Assembly: GCA_019459055.1 (NCBI GenBank)
Contig: JAIBEI010000043.1
Span: 1-64,000, forward strand
Direction: 5' to 3'
Length of the DNA: 64,000 bases
Origin: Thiobacillus sp.
GTDB taxonomy: Bacteria; Pseudomonadota; Gammaproteobacteria; Burkholderiales; Thiobacillaceae
In this document: positions 2,302-9,239 of the stretch, one piece after another
How positions within the stretch are numbered: the first letter of the stretch is position 1
Layout of the letters: every line of letters begins with the position of its first letter
Program-made: the position numbers and the translations under genes
Notes under the pieces: generated by a model
Databases searched by the model: none
Told to the model about the DNA's origin: nothing
The model's input: only the letters and a program-made list of their open reading frames with translations

Positions 2302-2449
2302 ATTAACCAGCGTTCCCCGAGTAAAAACATTGCTTATCACGGGGACTTTCACAGCCATTCGTACCAGCCATACCGGACATTATTGACTGTGCGCGTGACG
2401 GCACTTGCCGGGTAGGATGCCGTCACTCCAATACCAATACTCAGCCGTC

Positions 2450-5407
2450 ATGGCCCGTGTTCCCACCCCGCTCACCGATAGTCGCATCCTCCAGGCAAGG
2501 CCCGTCGACAAGCCGGTCAAGCTGGCGGACGGCGGCGGCATGTATTTGCTGCTGCGGCAGGACGGTTCGTGCTACTGGCGGCTGGATTACCGTTTCGATG
2601 GCAAGCGCAAGACCCTGGCGCTGGGGGTGTATCCGGAGGTTTCGCTCGACGAGGCGAGAAAGCGGCGCAGCGCCGCCAAGGCCCTGCTGGCGGAGGGGCT
2701 TGACCCCTGCGCGCTGAAGAAAGCGGAGAAGGCCGGCCGCACGCCGCACGCTGGAGGGGGGAAACAGGCCCAAGCGCTGGCGCTGGTCATGCAGCGGCGC
2801 AATCTTTTCCTGCAGACGATGGCGGCGATCAACGAAATGCTCATGGCGGGACTGCCCGACCAGGCGCTGATGTTGCGCGTCTGCCAGGAACTGATCCGGG
2901 GCGACCTGTTCCGCATGGCCTGGATCGGCCTGGTGGATGAGGACGGTGTGACGGTGCGTCGGGTGGCCGAGGCCGGCTTTGCCCGGGACGATCCCGCCCA
3001 GGCGGATGTTCGCTGCGACGACTCGCCACAGGGGCGGGGGACGACCGGCACCGCAATCCGCATGGGCGCCACGGTGGTCAACAACGATACCGAAATCAAC
3101 CAGAGATTCGCGTTGTGGCGGGGGCATGCGCGTGCCCAGGGTTACCGGTCGTCGGCCGCCACGCCGTTGCGGATCGGCGGGAAGTTGGTGGGCGCACTCA
3201 ATGTCTATTGCCACGAACCGCACGCATTCGGGCTTGAGAAAGTGATGCTGCTGGAAAAGCTGGCCACCGATCTCGGCCTTGCCATCGACCATCGCGCGTC
3301 GCTGGCGGCCCTGCGCGAAAGCGAGGAGCGTTTCCGCCTGCTGCTGGATTCATCGTCCGAGGCGATTTTCGGGGTCGACACCCAGGGCCTCTGCACCTTC
3401 GTCAACCCGGCCTGCCTCGACATGCTGGGCTACACGCAGGAGGAAATGCTCGGCAAGAACGTGCATTGCCTCATCCATCACACCTATCCGGACGGCCGGC
3501 CGTATCCCAAGGAAGACTGCCACGTTCGCTGCGCCACCCTGCAGGGCAAGCCCACGCACGTGGACAGCGAGGTGCACTGGCGCAAGGACGGCAGCAGCTT
3601 CCCGGTGGAATACTGGTCGCACCCCATTTACCGCAACGGCGAACTGGTGGGAACGGTGGTCAATTTCCTGGACATCAGCGAGCGCAAGCGCATGGAGCGG
3701 GCGTTGCTGGACAGCGAGGCGCGTTACCGGCTGATTTGCAGCATGGCCACCGATCTGCTGTATTCGTGTGTACGGAAGGAAGATGGTCATTTTGCCATCG
3801 AATGGGCGACCGCCTCGTCGGACCGGATCTTTGGTTATTCGGTGGACGAGGTCCTGAATCAGGGTTGCTGGCGCTGCCATGTGCATCCGGACGATCAGAC
3901 TGAATTCGATCGCAATATCGATCATCTTTTGCCGGGACAGCGCAGCGAATGCGAGCTGCGCATCATCGCCAAGGATGGCGCCACACGGCATATCCGGGCC
4001 TATTCCATGGTGGTGGTGTCGGAGGATGCGCAACAGCCGCACCGGCTGTATGGCGCCTGCCAGGACATTACCGAACGCAAGCAGGCGGAGGAACGCATCG
4101 AGTTCCTGGCCCACCACGATGCCTTGACCGGCCTGCCCAACCGCATCCTGCTGCGCGACCGCTTTGCGCATGCGCTGGCCATGGCGGCACGCTCCCGGTC
4201 ACGGGTGGCGCTGCTGTTCCTCGACCTGGACAACTTCAAGCGGGTGAACGACACGCTGGGGCACGCAGCCGGCGACCAGTTGCTGCTGGAGGCGGTTACG
4301 CGCCTGTCCCGCTGCATGCGTGAGAGCGACACCATCTGCCGCCAGGGCGGCGACGAATTCATCGTGCTGCTGAATGACATCCCTTGCCTGGAAACGGTGG
4401 AACGGATTGCCGGCAACATCCTTAGCCATCTGGCCGAGCCGGTCGAGATCTGCGGGCACATACTGAATACCTCCTGCAGCATCGGCGTGGCCATATTCCC
4501 CGAGGACGGAAACGACATCGACAGCCTGCTGCAAAAGGCCGATACGGCGATGTACAGCGCCAAGGACAGCGGCCGCAACGCGTACCGTTTTTTCGACGCG
4601 CAGATGAACCGGCAGGCGCACGAGCACCTGTTGCTGCAGAACCGGTTGCACCAGGCGCTTTTCCGCGACGAGTTTTCCCTGCACTATCAGCCGCAACTGG
4701 AGATCGACAGCGGCAAGGTGGTTGGCGTCGAGGCGTTGCTGCGCTGGCAAAGCCCGGAGCTGGGCGAGGTGGCGCCGGCCCGCTTCATTCCGGTGGCGGA
4801 AGACAGTGGCCTGATCGTTCCGATCGGCGCCTGGGTGCTGGAGGAAGCCTGCCGTCAGGCGCAGGTCTGGCGCCTGGCCGGATGGCCCGAGCTGTCCATG
4901 TCGGTCAACCTGTCCGCCCTGCAGTTCCGGCGTCCCGGCCTGATCGAAACCGTGGCGGGTGCGCTCGACCGCAGCGGCCTGCCGCCGCATTTGCTGGAAC
5001 TGGAACTGACCGAGTCGATCCTGCTGCAAGATGTGGAAAAAAACCTCGAATTGGTGCGGCGACTGAAGGCGCTTGGCGTGCGGCTGTCGATCGACGATTT
5101 CGGCACCGGCTATTCGTCGCTCAGCTATCTCAAGCGCTTCGCCGTCGACCGCCTGAAGATCGACCGCGCCTTCGTACGCGACATCAACCTCGACCCGGAC
5201 GATGCCGCCATTGTCCGCGCGGTGATCCAGCTGGCACGCAGCCTGCGTCTGGGCATCATCGCCGAAGGGGTGGAAACACAGGAACAACTGGCGTTTCTGC
5301 GTGACGAGGGATGTCCGGAAGTGCAGGGTTTCCTCTACAGCCGGCCGCTGGCGCCGGCGCAGATCGAAATCTTTTTGCGCGAGCACCTGGCAGCCAGCCT
5401 GGTTTGA
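2450..5407 (+). CDS. Integrase-arm DNA-binding domain fused to GAF-PAS-PAS-GGDEF-EAL
   Basis: A 985-residue single open frame. Residues ~6-90 match the arm-type DNA-binding domain (DUF4102) at the N-terminus of phage/island tyrosine integrases: KLADGGGMYLLL, WRLDYRFDGKRKTLALGVYP, SLDEARKRRSAAKALLAEG. No recombinase catalytic domain follows. Instead come GAF (~120-285), two PAS (~290-415, ~420-545), GGDEF (~550-715; GGDEF intact, RESD I-site five residues upstream) and EAL (~725-980; [26 protein letters not shown]). Predicted to be cytoplasmic, with no membrane segment. The GGDEF and EAL motifs suggest both c-di-GMP synthesis and breakdown are possible. The frame opens at 2405; MARVP at 2450 begins where integrase homology starts, but no clear ribosome site decides. 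DNA binding is inference from the domain. Confidence 0.88.
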   Translation: MARVPTPLTDSRILQARPVDKPVKLADGGGMYLLLRQDGSCYWRLDYRFDGKRKTLALGVYPEVSLDEARKRRSAAKALLAEGLDPCALKKAEKAGRTPHAGGGKQAQALALVMQRRNLFLQTMAAINEMLMAGLPDQALMLRVCQELIRGDLFRMAWIGLVDEDGVTVRRVAEAGFARDDPAQADVRCDDSPQGRGTTGTAIRMGATVVNNDTEINQRFALWRGHARAQGYRSSAATPLRIGGKLVGALNVYCHEPHAFGLEKVMLLEKLATDLGLAIDHRASLAALRESEERFRLLLDSSSEAIFGVDTQGLCTFVNPACLDMLGYTQEEMLGKNVHCLIHHTYPDGRPYPKEDCHVRCATLQGKPTHVDSEVHWRKDGSSFPVEYWSHPIYRNGELVGTVVNFLDISERKRMERALLDSEARYRLICSMATDLLYSCVRKEDGHFAIEWATASSDRIFGYSVDEVLNQGCWRCHVHPDDQTEFDRNIDHLLPGQRSECELRIIAKDGATRHIRAYSMVVVSEDAQQPHRLYGACQDITERKQAEERIEFLAHHDALTGLPNRILLRDRFAHALAMAARSRSRVALLFLDLDNFKRVNDTLGHAAGDQLLLEAVTRLSRCMRESDTICRQGGDEFIVLLNDIPCLETVERIAGNILSHLAEPVEICGHILNTSCSIGVAIFPEDGNDIDSLLQKADTAMYSAKDSGRNAYRFFDAQMNRQAHEHLLLQNRLHQALFRDEFSLHYQPQLEIDSGKVVGVEALLRWQSPELGEVAPARFIPVAEDSGLIVPIGAWVLEEACRQAQVWRLAGWPELSMSVNLSALQFRRPGLIETVAGALDRSGLPPHLLELELTESILLQDVEKNLELVRRLKALGVRLSIDDFGTGYSSLSYLKRFAVDRLKIDRAFVRDINLDPDDAAIVRAVIQLARSLRLGIIAEGVETQEQLAFLRDEGCPEVQGFLYSRPLAPAQIEIFLREHLAASLV

Positions 5408-5479
5408 AGACGCACGACACCATTCGCGCTGCGGCTGCCCGGGTTCTATCCTGAAAGCATCGTTCCTTGAGGAGCAGCC

Positions 5480-5755
5480 ATGCGCCACAAATATGAGAGC
5501 TTGCTGCATGCCATTTTTGAAGGTCCCGTCAGCGGCAACGTCCATTGGCGCGAGGTGGAGTCGATGCTGACGCACCTGGGCGCCAGGGTTGAGCCGCATC
5601 ATGGCGCGAGCTTCCGCGTGGTATTGAACGGGGTGGAGGGATTCATCCATCGCCCGCACAACAGCCCTACCTGCACCAAACAGGAACTGCGCCATGTGCG
5701 CGATTACCTGGCGGCGGCCGGGGTGAGTCCCGTGCAGCCCAAGGCGGAGGAGTAA
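5480..5755 (+). CDS. HicA-like mRNA interferase family protein (orphan)
   Basis: A 91-residue protein with the layout of HicA toxins: an N-terminal helix (YESLLHAIFEGP), W-R-EVESMLTHLGA, then the His-containing strand (EPHHGASFRVVLNG) and a C-terminal helix (KQELRHVRDYLAAAG). HicA proteins are double-stranded-RNA-binding-fold ribonucleases, normally paired with a HicB antitoxin. No HicB-like gene lies on either side, so it may be a solitary relative rather than an active toxin. GAGGAG ends about six bases before the ATG at 5480. It is transcribed in the same direction as the upstream GGDEF-EAL gene, 72 bases away. Confidence 0.65.
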   Translation: MRHKYESLLHAIFEGPVSGNVHWREVESMLTHLGARVEPHHGASFRVVLNGVEGFIHRPHNSPTCTKQELRHVRDYLAAAGVSPVQPKAEE

Positions 5756-5889
5756 CCAGCTCCCCTCAGGCGAAGATTGCGGGATCGTCGCCTGCATTCG
5801 CCCCGAATTCGCATCATCGACGCCAATATGGATTTCAAATTTTGTCGGGGGCGTTTATATTCCAGTAGTCCAAAAACAAAGGCACCCGC

Positions 5890-6294
5890 ATGAACATCTC
5901 AAATTACACGGATCTGTTGAACGCCGCCAGGCAGCAGCCGGAACCACAACGGCTTCTCTTCGTTTTTACGCAATCCGAGCTGCCCGAAGGCTATACCGAA
6001 GTCCAGACGCAGCGTTTCAAAGCCGGGAAGGGGGGCGTGTTGACCCCCAAAATGTGCACCGACAAAGCGCTGGACGAGTTGGGTGACTTTTCCGACCTGG
6101 TCGAGGAATCACGCAAGACCGGGCTGGACTGGAAAATCGTGTTTGTCGCCTGCCTGGCCGGGCGTGGGGGGGTCATGCCGAGCACCGAAGACGCGCAGAC
6201 GCCCCTGAAAAAGATGGTCGATTCCATCCTGAATGGCGCGATCTCCCAGTATCTGGCCTACGATTCGGATGGGAATCAGGTTCGGTTTTCCTGA
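5890..6294 (+). CDS. Conserved hypothetical small cytosolic protein
   Basis: 134 residues, no signal peptide or membrane segment, mixed alpha/beta. Recognisable patches are [34 protein letters not shown] and [14 protein letters not shown]. Related proteins in betaproteobacteria have sometimes been labelled ribonucleotide reductase subunit alpha, but nothing here supports that: it is far too short and lacks radical or allosteric motifs. Its last 19 bases overlap the 3' end of the opposing GGDEF-EAL gene. Function unknown. Confidence 0.7.
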
Positions 6295-9239
6295 GAAATA
6301 CAACCGGGCGGCAGCCCCTTCAGCAAGGCCTCGAATTCATCGGCCGGCAGCGGCCTGGAGAACAGGAATCCTTGCGCATAGTCGCAGCCCGCCTGGGTCA
6401 GCAGCGCCCGCTGCGCTTCCGTCTCCACCCCTTCGGCGATCACCTTGAGGCCAAGCTTGTGCGCCATCACAATGATGGCCTCGGACAATGCCCGGTCATT
6501 CGAGTCGATCACCAGATCGCGCACGAATGACTGGTCGATCTTCAGGTAATCGATATCGAATTTCTTCAGGTAGGACAGCGACGAATAGCCCGTTCCGAAG
6601 TCGTCGATCGCGATCTGAATACCCGCTTCATGGAATCCGAGCAACTCATCGGTGACGCCGGTTTCGGAATTGAGTAGCAAGCCTTCGGTGATCTCAACGA
6701 CCAGGCTTTGCGCAGGCAGTTCCAGTTCCTGCAAATAAACGAGCCATGCCTTGCTCAGGCAGCCGGCAACGCCGCCGAACTGCGCGGGTGACAGGTTCAC
6801 GCTGACCTGTAGCCTGCTGTTGTACAACACTTCCCAGTGTTTCAGCTGGCGCGCCGATTCCTTGAATACCCAGTCGCCGATTTCGACAATCAAGCCGCTC
6901 TCTTCGGCCAGCGGGATAAGCTGCGCCGGGCTGACCATGCCGAGTTCCGGGTGTAGCCAGCGGATGAGCGCTTCTGCCTTGTGGATGCGGCCGGTAGCCA
7001 GATCGACGATGGGCTGGTAGTAAATCTTGAACTGCTTGGCTTCCAGCGCGCCGCGCAACTCGTTGGTCAGGCGCAGGCGGGCCTGGGCGGATTGCTGCAT
7101 GGCCGGGGTGAAATAGCTGAATCGGTTGCGCCCTTCGTTCTTGGCGGCATACATCGCCTGATCGGCGTTCTTGAGTAGATCGTCCACATTGGTGGCGTCG
7201 TTGGGATAGAGCGTGATGCCGATGCTGGTTGATATATAGACCATTTCGTTTTTCAGCAGAAACGGCTTGGCCAGGCTTTGCCGGATGTTTCCCGCGACCC
7301 GCTCGACGCTGCCGGTATCGCCAAGCTCGGCCAGGATGACGATGAACTCGTCACCGCCCAGGCGTGCCACGGTGTCGGTCTCGCGCACGCAGCCACCAAT
7401 GCGGCGCGCGGCTTCCTGCAGCAGGATGTCGCCCATGGTGTGCCCTAGCGTATCGTTGACCTCCTTGAATTTGTCGAGGTCGATGAACAGCAGGCCTATT
7501 TCGAGTTCGGCGCGATCCGCCTTCTTGATTTCCTGCACCATCCGATCGTGGAACATGTGGCGGTTGGGCAGGCCGGTCAAGGTGTCGAAATTGGCCTGTT
7601 TCCAGATCAGCTCCTCGGATTCTTTCTGCTGGGTAATATCGCGGATGAAGCCATTGAACTCACACTCGCCCGCCGTGTTGACTGCGGTAATGGACAATTC
7701 GACTGGGAACTCATGGCCATCGCGATGCAAGCCCGCAACTTCGAACCGCGGATTCAAAATAGTCCCCTCGCCGGCAAACAGAAAGCGTTTCAATCCCTGC
7801 GTATGCGCCTCGCGGTACTGGGGCGGGATAATGGTCTCGCTCAGCACCCGCCCGAGCGCTTCCTCGCGGCTCCAGCCGAAAATATTTTCCGCCTGGCTGC
7901 TCCAGCCAGTGATGATGCCTTCGCGGTTCATCTGCACCACGGCATCCAGTGCGGAGTCGAGGATGGCGCGCAGGCGCGCTTTATCTTCGCGGTGCGTTTC
8001 AAGCAGGGCTTTTAATCCATCGGCCATTTCATTGAAGCTGTCGCCCACCTGGCTGAGCTCGTCGCGCGTGCCAAGCTGGATGCGTGTGTTCAGATCGCCG
8101 CCGGCAAAGGTGCGCGCGCAGCGGGCTATCATCTGAATGCTGCCGACAATGGCATAGTAAAAACTGACCGACAGATAGACCGCCAGCAGGAGCACCAGCA
8201 GGGCAATGCCGAGGCTGGCGAACAGCTCGTTTTTTGCGCGGTCGATATGCGCCTGGGCCAGACTCCGGGCCATTGGCAGCAGGGCATCGTACAGTTGCGC
8301 ATAACTGCGGTCGATTTGTTCCGTGGCGGCATTCAGGAAGGTTTCAGGAGGGAGGGCAAAGCGGCCGGAGAGAATGTCCGTTGCCACAAGCCCGGTCACC
8401 TGCCTGACCGAATTGTCGATATCGCGGGATACCGCCTGAAGCGCGCTGTGAATGGCCGGATTGTGGCGTTCGACACTTTCGGTGCCGAGGTTGAAATGTC
8501 GCATCGCATCGTCCAGCCCGGCCATCATTAACCGAAGTTCGACGCGCTGGTCCTCGTCGAGCCGCTTTCCAGTCAGCGCGTTCCGGGTCAGTGCGCCCGT
8601 GCCGTAGGCGCGCAGGCGGCCAAGCTGTTCCAGCACGCGCATCAGCCTGTTGGTGGCGATGTCGACCAGGTAATACGCAGCGATGTCCGTATCCATGACC
8701 AGCAGGTGTTGCTCGGAAACCAGCTGTTCGAGGAATTGCAGATGCTCGATCAGCCCGGTATGCGCGGCAAGATTGTCGGCCACGGTCAACGCCAGGCCTT
8801 CCTTTTGCAGCCGTGTCCAGTCGGTGCGGATGCGGCGGTAGTCTTCGGTCCCGGTCAGGCTGTGGGGAAGCTTTTCTTCCAACGTCCCGAGGGCATCGGC
8901 GACGATCTTTTCCTGGGCGGCGCGCCGGTCGCGCATGGACGTGTTGCCGCCCAGAAAGGCGGCCGAGAGCCCGCGGTGCAATTGCAGGGCCTGCGTGGCA
9001 CGGGTGACCGGCTCGATCAGGGCAAGGCCTTCCAGCCGCTGTTGCGAGGGCTGAATGACGCGTTCCAGATTGACAATAAGGCTGTACACCATCACGCCAA
9101 TCGCAATCAGCGACACCACCCACAGCAGCGTGAACTTCTTGGTGTAGTTCAGGCGATTCAGCATGAAAATGGCAGGGGAGAAGATTCTTTGCATTGATGC
9201 TTTCCCGCCGTTTTCGTTGTGCATGCCCGTTCTTCTCAT
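6276..9239 (-). CDS. Membrane sensor HAMP-PAS-GGDEF-EAL protein
   Basis: 987 residues. Membrane helix ~37-56, then a large, mostly helical periplasmic region ~60-335 containing [15 protein letters not shown], which resembles the start of NIT-type helical sensor domains. Second membrane helix ~341-364, HAMP ~365-415, PAS ~423-540, GGDEF ~545-710 (RETD I-site and GGDEF intact), EAL ~725-975 ([26 protein letters not shown]). Predicted bifunctional c-di-GMP enzyme. Start uncertain: ATGs at 9239, 9224 and 9194 are all possible, and MQRIF at 9194 begins the likely membrane topology. Its 3' end overlaps the convergent gene at 5890-6294. Ligand unknown. Confidence 0.88.

Follow-up and report, generated by a model that had tools for sequence, protein, structure and literature searches.

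Why would an enzyme of cyclic di-GMP (c-di-GMP) signalling carry the DNA-binding arm of an integrase? The question is raised by one gene of the 64,000-nucleotide stretch of Thiobacillus sp. DNA analysed here (contig JAIBEI010000043.1, positions 1 to 64,000; hereafter the window). This gene, at 2450..5407 on the + strand, encodes a protein of 985 amino acids (aa) with the Pfam domain order Arm-DNA-bind_3 - GAF - PAS - PAS - GGDEF - EAL. We show that this architecture recurs in the genus, that the fused arms form a single clade under purifying selection, and that the DNA element upstream of the fusion genes matches repeats found at the starts of integrase genes. We regard it as rather likely that an integrase arm captured once, together with its sites, now autoregulates a c-di-GMP enzyme.

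The reading frame is unbroken from the ATG at 2450 to the stop codon ending at 5407. Its integrase-type arm DNA-binding domain (residues 8-93; 2471..2728, + strand) is identified by Pfam, by PDB profile matches and by an AlphaFold2 model. The match to PF13356 (Arm-DNA-bind_3) is complete (profile positions 1-83 of 83; 80.8 bits for a cut-off of 27); the PDB profile matches are 3ju0, the HAI7 integrase (E 3.2e-34), and 3jtz, the HPI integrase (E 5.4e-25; 3jtz and 3rmp are the same sequence entry); and the model of residues 1-103 (pLDDT, the predicted local distance difference test, 78.6) superposes on 3ju0 with a root-mean-square deviation of 0.8 Å, and on 3jtz and 3rmp with 1.0 Å. The profile search and the structure prediction suggested in a preliminary description of this DNA both bear out its assignment of a complete arm domain that continues, in one frame, into c-di-GMP modules. 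These modules, all on the + strand, are a GAF domain (GAF_2; residues 139-280, 2864..3289), a PAS domain (residues 293-411, 3326..3682) and a PAS_3 domain (residues 456-535, 3815..4054), all three found by Pfam, followed by a GGDEF domain with its GGDEF and RxxD I-site motifs (residues 554-710, 4109..4579) and an EAL domain with catalytic motifs (residues 731-966, 4640..5347), both found by Pfam and motif reading. The motifs quoted earlier are indeed present, the intact GGDEF, I-site and EAL motifs among them, and conserved motif strings occur in 33 of 33 aligned fusion proteins. Also as described before, no recombinase part follows: Pfam matches with E up to 0.1 include neither a core-binding nor a catalytic tyrosine recombinase domain in the 985-aa protein, and integrases with long frames do show both domains. 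The arm has a charge of +8 and the remainder of the protein -27, and no 19-residue Kyte-Doolittle window exceeds 1.44. In a full-length model (pLDDT 77.3; predicted template modelling score 0.36) the domains are folded and their mutual arrangement is unreliable. The protein is predicted to be a soluble hybrid GGDEF-EAL c-di-GMP enzyme with GAF and PAS sensors.

Such a composite gene might reflect a sequencing frameshift or an assembly join, for which the vicinity of position 2750 had been singled out, yet there is no sign of either. We found one fused arm in each of 34 of the 56 Thiobacillus genomes, hence in 33 genomes other than that of the window, the isolate T. thioparus DSM 505 (L096) among them. 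In genome G006 the same frame is open, with 93% identity across residues 1-304, and 33 fusion proteins, including that of the window, each gave one continuous frame and could be aligned with one another. Together with the complete Pfam match, these observations refute the artefact, to which we give almost no credence. Fused arms score 161-184 bits and other arm genes at most 141 bits among the matches listed for the genus; 33 of the 34 fused arms lie in open frames of 824-1244 aa, and that of G008 in a 127-aa frame ending in ambiguous bases. The arm was matched together with further domains in 32 of 79 loci, some of them under record titles of other taxa. All 33 aligned proteins have profile scores for the arm (PF13356), GGDEF and EAL, and 29 of them for GAF; the GGDEF signature occurs in 33, ELELTES in 31 and the strict I-site-plus-GGDEF string in 30. 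Most fusions have an extra PAS domain between arm and GAF (seen directly in L057 and deduced elsewhere from the position of the GAF match), which the window protein lacks, and four short forms (L069-L072) have no GAF.

The fusion appears confined to the genus, since no fused arm occurs among the matches listed for 399 genomes from the order or for 369 genomes of the class. The longest other arm frame among the matches listed for the order sample (601 aa) is an integrase; no plasmid or phage record matches 80% of residues 1-287 at a single place; and in viral contigs no match listed spans arm to GAF. Long-frame arm genes considered as further fusions (G055 and G051, 624 aa; G014, 677 aa; G563, 601 aa) turned out to be long integrases: three of their proteins were scanned (L275, L277 and L278), and L276 has the frame length of L275 and almost the same score. 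The frames of 624 and 677 aa belong to Thiobacillus genomes and have weaker arm scores than the fusions. All these integrases of 601-677 aa (L275-L278) are extended at the N- or C-terminus by sequence that matches no Pfam family. In the open-licence literature (titles and starts of abstracts) we found nothing combining DUF4102 with GGDEF, and no protein uniting a diguanylate cyclase with an integrase or an arm-type domain among the matches listed, in line with the preliminary description, which likewise knew of none.

How did the arm reach this enzyme? In a tree of 34 fused and 49 integrase arms (99 columns), all fused arms fall on one side of a branch with support 98/96; they stand beside the arms of P4-like integrases, their sister group being weakly placed. 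A protein from another genus of the family (L062) has the same order of GAF, PAS, GGDEF and EAL domains and no arm match. From this single clade, this arm-less relative and the integrase-start repeats upstream of the fusion genes (see below), it is well supported that the arm domain would have been gained once, within the Thiobacillus lineage, from a P4-like tyrosine integrase, and the arm-type sites, or operator, were probably captured along with it. The integrase gene capture proposed in the preliminary description thereby gains substance.

The captured arm is conserved. Among close pairs the median ratio of nonsynonymous to synonymous substitutions is 0.10 for the arm, 0.10 for PAS1, 0.083 for EAL, 0.132 for GGDEF and 0.21 for GAF; judged by these ratios, the arm is under purifying selection of about the strength acting on the EAL domain. 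Thirty-two columns are invariant across 27 arms, and two residues discussed below, D46 (codon 2585..2587, + strand) and R53 (codon 2606..2608, + strand), are present in 34 of 34 fusions. Together with the conserved upstream sites, these features speak against the arm being a functionless relic of an accidental fusion, an explanation that we hold to be very improbable in spite of the 22 genomes lacking a fused arm and of one decayed copy (L067).

Upstream of the fusion genes we found a conserved element that matches the integrase-start repeats and is new. In otherwise diverged upstream regions, its order is TTYGTACCA, 15-17 bp, TTGACGGTAT, 3 bp, TGACGGCAT and a -10-like TAGGATG (spacing taken from the 29 regions that match). 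At least one direct GACGGYA lies within -100..0 of 32 of the 34 fusion genes, as compared with 211 of 8197 background windows; at least two copies, always with a 12 bp step, precede 19 of the 34, as compared with 2 of 8197. In the window, the first repeat is degenerate (GACTGTG at -65; 2385..2391, + strand) and the second, 12 bp from it, is GACGGCA (at -53; 2397..2403, + strand). A -10-like TAGGAT (2413..2418, + strand) lies 9 bp past the second repeat. The conserved upstream half, defined by the conserved columns of the upstream alignment (2358..2366, - strand; TTCGTACCA on the + strand, TGGTACGAA on the - strand), is possibly a third, inverted and variant arm site; the integrase gene L112 has tGGTA variants 10 and 12 bp beyond its GACGGTA. 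An inverted copy, TGCCGTC on the + strand, stands at -32 (2418..2424, - strand), in the same place in L035 and L069, and at -7 in L059.

The same heptamer marks the starts of integrase genes. GACGGTA is the top heptamer in the -100..+20 regions of integrases, where it occurs in 25 of 49 non-redundant genes versus 32 of 2612 windows. This count excludes the fusion loci and concerns integrases picked by likeness to the fused arm, with 20 from the genus list and those of the window's own genome, rather than a general survey (69 loci, 68 of them scored, 49 after dropping arms at least 90% alike). Most copies fall between -70 and +10 relative to the start; six genes (L113, L114, L120, L121, L123 and L152, the first two looking alike) have two copies near the start at a distance of 12 bp, as in the fusions. 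We consider it very probable that these repeats are the arm-type sites of the integrases and that the fusion protein would bind them as well.

The residues D46 and R53 may connect the fused arm to these repeats. Among the 97 columns compared, positions 46 and 53 separate the integrases best: all 22 that possess two or more GACGGTA carry both residues, versus 6 of the 24 that possess none. In a wider set, GACGGTA accompanies 25 of 30 D46/R53 integrases, 0 of 23 K46/E53 integrases and 1 of all 41 non-D/R integrases, whereas TTGGGGG accompanies 19 of 23 K46/E53 integrases and 1 of 48 others; TGACGGTA and TGGGGGTA differ by just two bases. The residue pair having been chosen on the cellular set, the viral set alone is out of sample: among viral integrases with upstream DNA, GACGGTA occurs in 0 of 11 K/E and in 1 of 1 D/R members (loci of the whole comparison: L001, L003, L108-L153, L180-L199 and L212-L273). 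We propose D46/R53 with TGACGGTA, and K46/E53 with TTGGGGG, as a candidate recognition code for the arms of P4-like integrases. As a predictive rule, the pattern would help to find the attachment (att) arms of islands. No literature pairing TGACGGTA with an integrase was related by title, and articles on arm-type sites did not mention the HPI integrase among the matches listed.

By analogy with integrases that control their own genes, we propose the following mechanism. A soluble GAF/PAS GGDEF-EAL enzyme would have gained the arm of a P4-like integrase with its arm-type sites; the arm would bind the TGACGGYA repeats, 12 bp apart at about -49 to -66, upstream of its own gene; bound to its own promoter, it would autoregulate this gene as IntS of KplE1 does, probably by repression; and the state of the C-terminal sensors and of c-di-GMP would set how well the protein occupies the promoter. 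A captured arm that still reads its captured sites is the simplest reading of the data, and it would make the c-di-GMP protein a controller of its own gene. Autoregulation itself seems likely to us, its negative sign somewhat more plausible than a positive one, and the gating of DNA binding by c-di-GMP or by the sensor state a possibility that we lean slightly against. GGDEF and PAS proteins are often dimers, and a dimer would fit two repeats at 12 bp. The earlier suggestion of control by specific DNA sites can thus be refined: the fusion gene is probably autoregulated, through sites that we name as the TGACGGTA repeats. The pattern suggests a signalling enzyme that controls its own gene through a recruited piece of a mobile element; if true, it would clearly exemplify the recruitment of a mobile-element recombinase domain and its DNA sites into second-messenger signalling. 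The naming of the DNA target makes binding open to immediate test.

The comparison with known systems is instructive. The fusion resembles the P4-like tyrosine integrases (HPI, 3jtz/3rmp; HAI7, 3ju0) in the sequence and predicted fold of its arm and, for the D46/R53 class, in the TGACGGTA repeats near the start codon (one intact direct and one degenerate copy in the window), but has a sensor-GGDEF-EAL part in place of their recombinase domains. C-di-GMP enzymes with DNA-binding domains are already known, such as VieA, the DNA-binding part of which is a response-regulator helix-turn-helix at the C-terminus. The fusion likewise unites a c-di-GMP enzyme and a predicted DNA-binding module in one polypeptide, but its module is an N-terminal integrase arm accompanied by repeats known from integrases. 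The EAL domain of VieA appears in a passage of PMC9303241. According to parts of PMC2951348, IntS of KplE1 represses its own promoter, which overlaps the P' arm-type sites, with TAAA as the conserved P' motif; here too, the predicted sites of the arm protein lie at the putative promoter of its gene, but IntS functions as an integrase, at an att site, and the fusion is a signalling enzyme without recombinase. An excerpt of PMC7286903 cites the work on IntS autoregulation, and its references include a title on a P4 integrase negatively regulated by Int. Read by eye, the intS gene of E. coli K-12 (L274, 480-560) has GGGTAAA-like repeats up to the ATG, and its product R/E at the two code positions.

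Several observations weigh against autoregulation by a captured arm. The fused arm is missing from 22 of the 56 genomes (several assemblies being incomplete), and the decayed copy in L067 (genome G037) lies, at about 5000-5950, between the usual neighbours, so that the gene seems dispensable. The species of the window has one degenerate repeat and one GACGGCA, and two of the 34 fusion genes (L037 and L041) have been kept without an upstream GACGGYA. A TA[ATG]GATG at most 30 bp from a repeat is found in 20 of 34 fusion genes and in 0 of 4109 background windows; with only 2 of 49 integrases possessing it, the capture of a whole promoter is weakly supported, and we rejected the -10 box as proof of it. 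In the residue pattern, position 55 also separates the site classes (p 1.9e-4, uncorrected); five of the 30 D/R integrases lack GACGGTA, among them L110, which has the best-scoring integrase arm, and one of the 41 non-D/R integrases has it; and after correction for relatedness two independent supported pairs are left, with a sign test that is not significant, so that the pattern is strong without being a proof. Finally, passages of PMC2951348 report that single P' mutations other than P'1 leave the repression by IntS intact.

Another factor may also act at the same repeats. The arm would then be a general DNA tether or a protein-contact domain, and the repeats would be kept for that factor or for RNA polymerase. 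Binding of the fusion protein to the repeats being a prediction from sequence patterns, and two orthologues having lost the repeats and retained the gene, this explanation has some appeal. We nevertheless find it improbable, in that the repeats match those of integrases of the same arm class while the other arm class has a different repeat, a correspondence that an unrelated factor would not predict.

Could the arm act instead on genomic islands? Its main function would then be cross-talk: the fused arm would occupy the arm-type sites of resident islands, and by competing with their integrases or recruiting them it would make excision c-di-GMP-responsive, or guard against the islands. In a further and equally unlikely variant, the domesticated operator and arm would turn the enzyme into a DNA-addressed regulator that shares the code of the islands; its c-di-GMP or sensor state would control the occupancy of TGACGGTA at its own promoter as well as at the att arms of islands, so that c-di-GMP would govern integration and excision in trans. 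The tandem pattern TGACGGYAN{3,5}TGACGGYA has 36 matches in the 56 genomes and none for the reversed control. Of these matches, 19 lie just upstream of fusion genes; by our reading of the flanks, 14 (in 13 loci) lie at apparent island ends and 3 in apparent coding frames. Cross-talk could account for the 17 sites away from fusion genes, for the common 'aaacaattgagtggga'-like flank of 9 loci and for the absence of an arm gene from every one of the 16 stretches retrieved for these sites, and the genus has integrases with GACGGYA near their start. We hold it to be unlikely all the same, because the conserved sites of the fusion gene itself suffice to explain the conservation of the arm. Moreover, island-like sites are present in 9 of the 34 fusion-bearing genomes and in 4 of the 22 others, which is no clear association; tandem sites are not enriched in the window's own genome (14 matches with up to 2 mismatches, 42 for the control); and of its three other arm genes, L001 and L003 lack a GACGGTA at the start (L004 was unscored). 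Articles on c-di-GMP with integrase, excision or integrative and conjugative elements included none evidently on island cross-talk among the matches listed. The tandem TGACGGTA at apparent Thiobacillus island ends with the 'aaacaattgagtggga'-like flank are L164-L168, L173, L175, L177 and L179. Neither that tandem pattern in the own genome nor the composite operator pointed to a wider regulon; the matches of the operator in the 56 genomes (at 17 fusion genes and at 5 further positions) show no excess over its reversed control (14).

Turning to the neighbourhood, an mscS-like gene, identified by Pfam, and a 91-aa gene flank the fusion in 21 of 34 cases, and at least one of them is present in 26, some flanks being short. 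In 25 of the 34 cases the 91-aa gene follows the fusion; in the window (5480..5755, + strand) its product is HicA-like by a sub-threshold match (26.6 bits, cut-off 27). In 7 of 12 fusion-free stretches around the 91-aa gene (L200, L201, L204, L205, L207, L209 and L210) mscS is close to it; no mscS frame was found in the other five, of which L202 and L203 come from genomes carrying the fusion elsewhere. Given these neighbours common to many genomes, the fusion gene does not appear to belong to a mobile element located at an att site, and the window contains no tRNA. Among the short forms, L069 retains the usual neighbours, which were not found in the fetched flanks of L070-L072; these three thus represent a short fusion in three genomes, off the usual neighbourhood, that still carries the upstream element with its repeats. 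Downstream of the fusion gene and convergent with it, the window encodes a second GGDEF-EAL protein (NIT-HAMP-PAS-GGDEF-EAL; 6276..9239, - strand), a close relative of which is present in L035 and L067.

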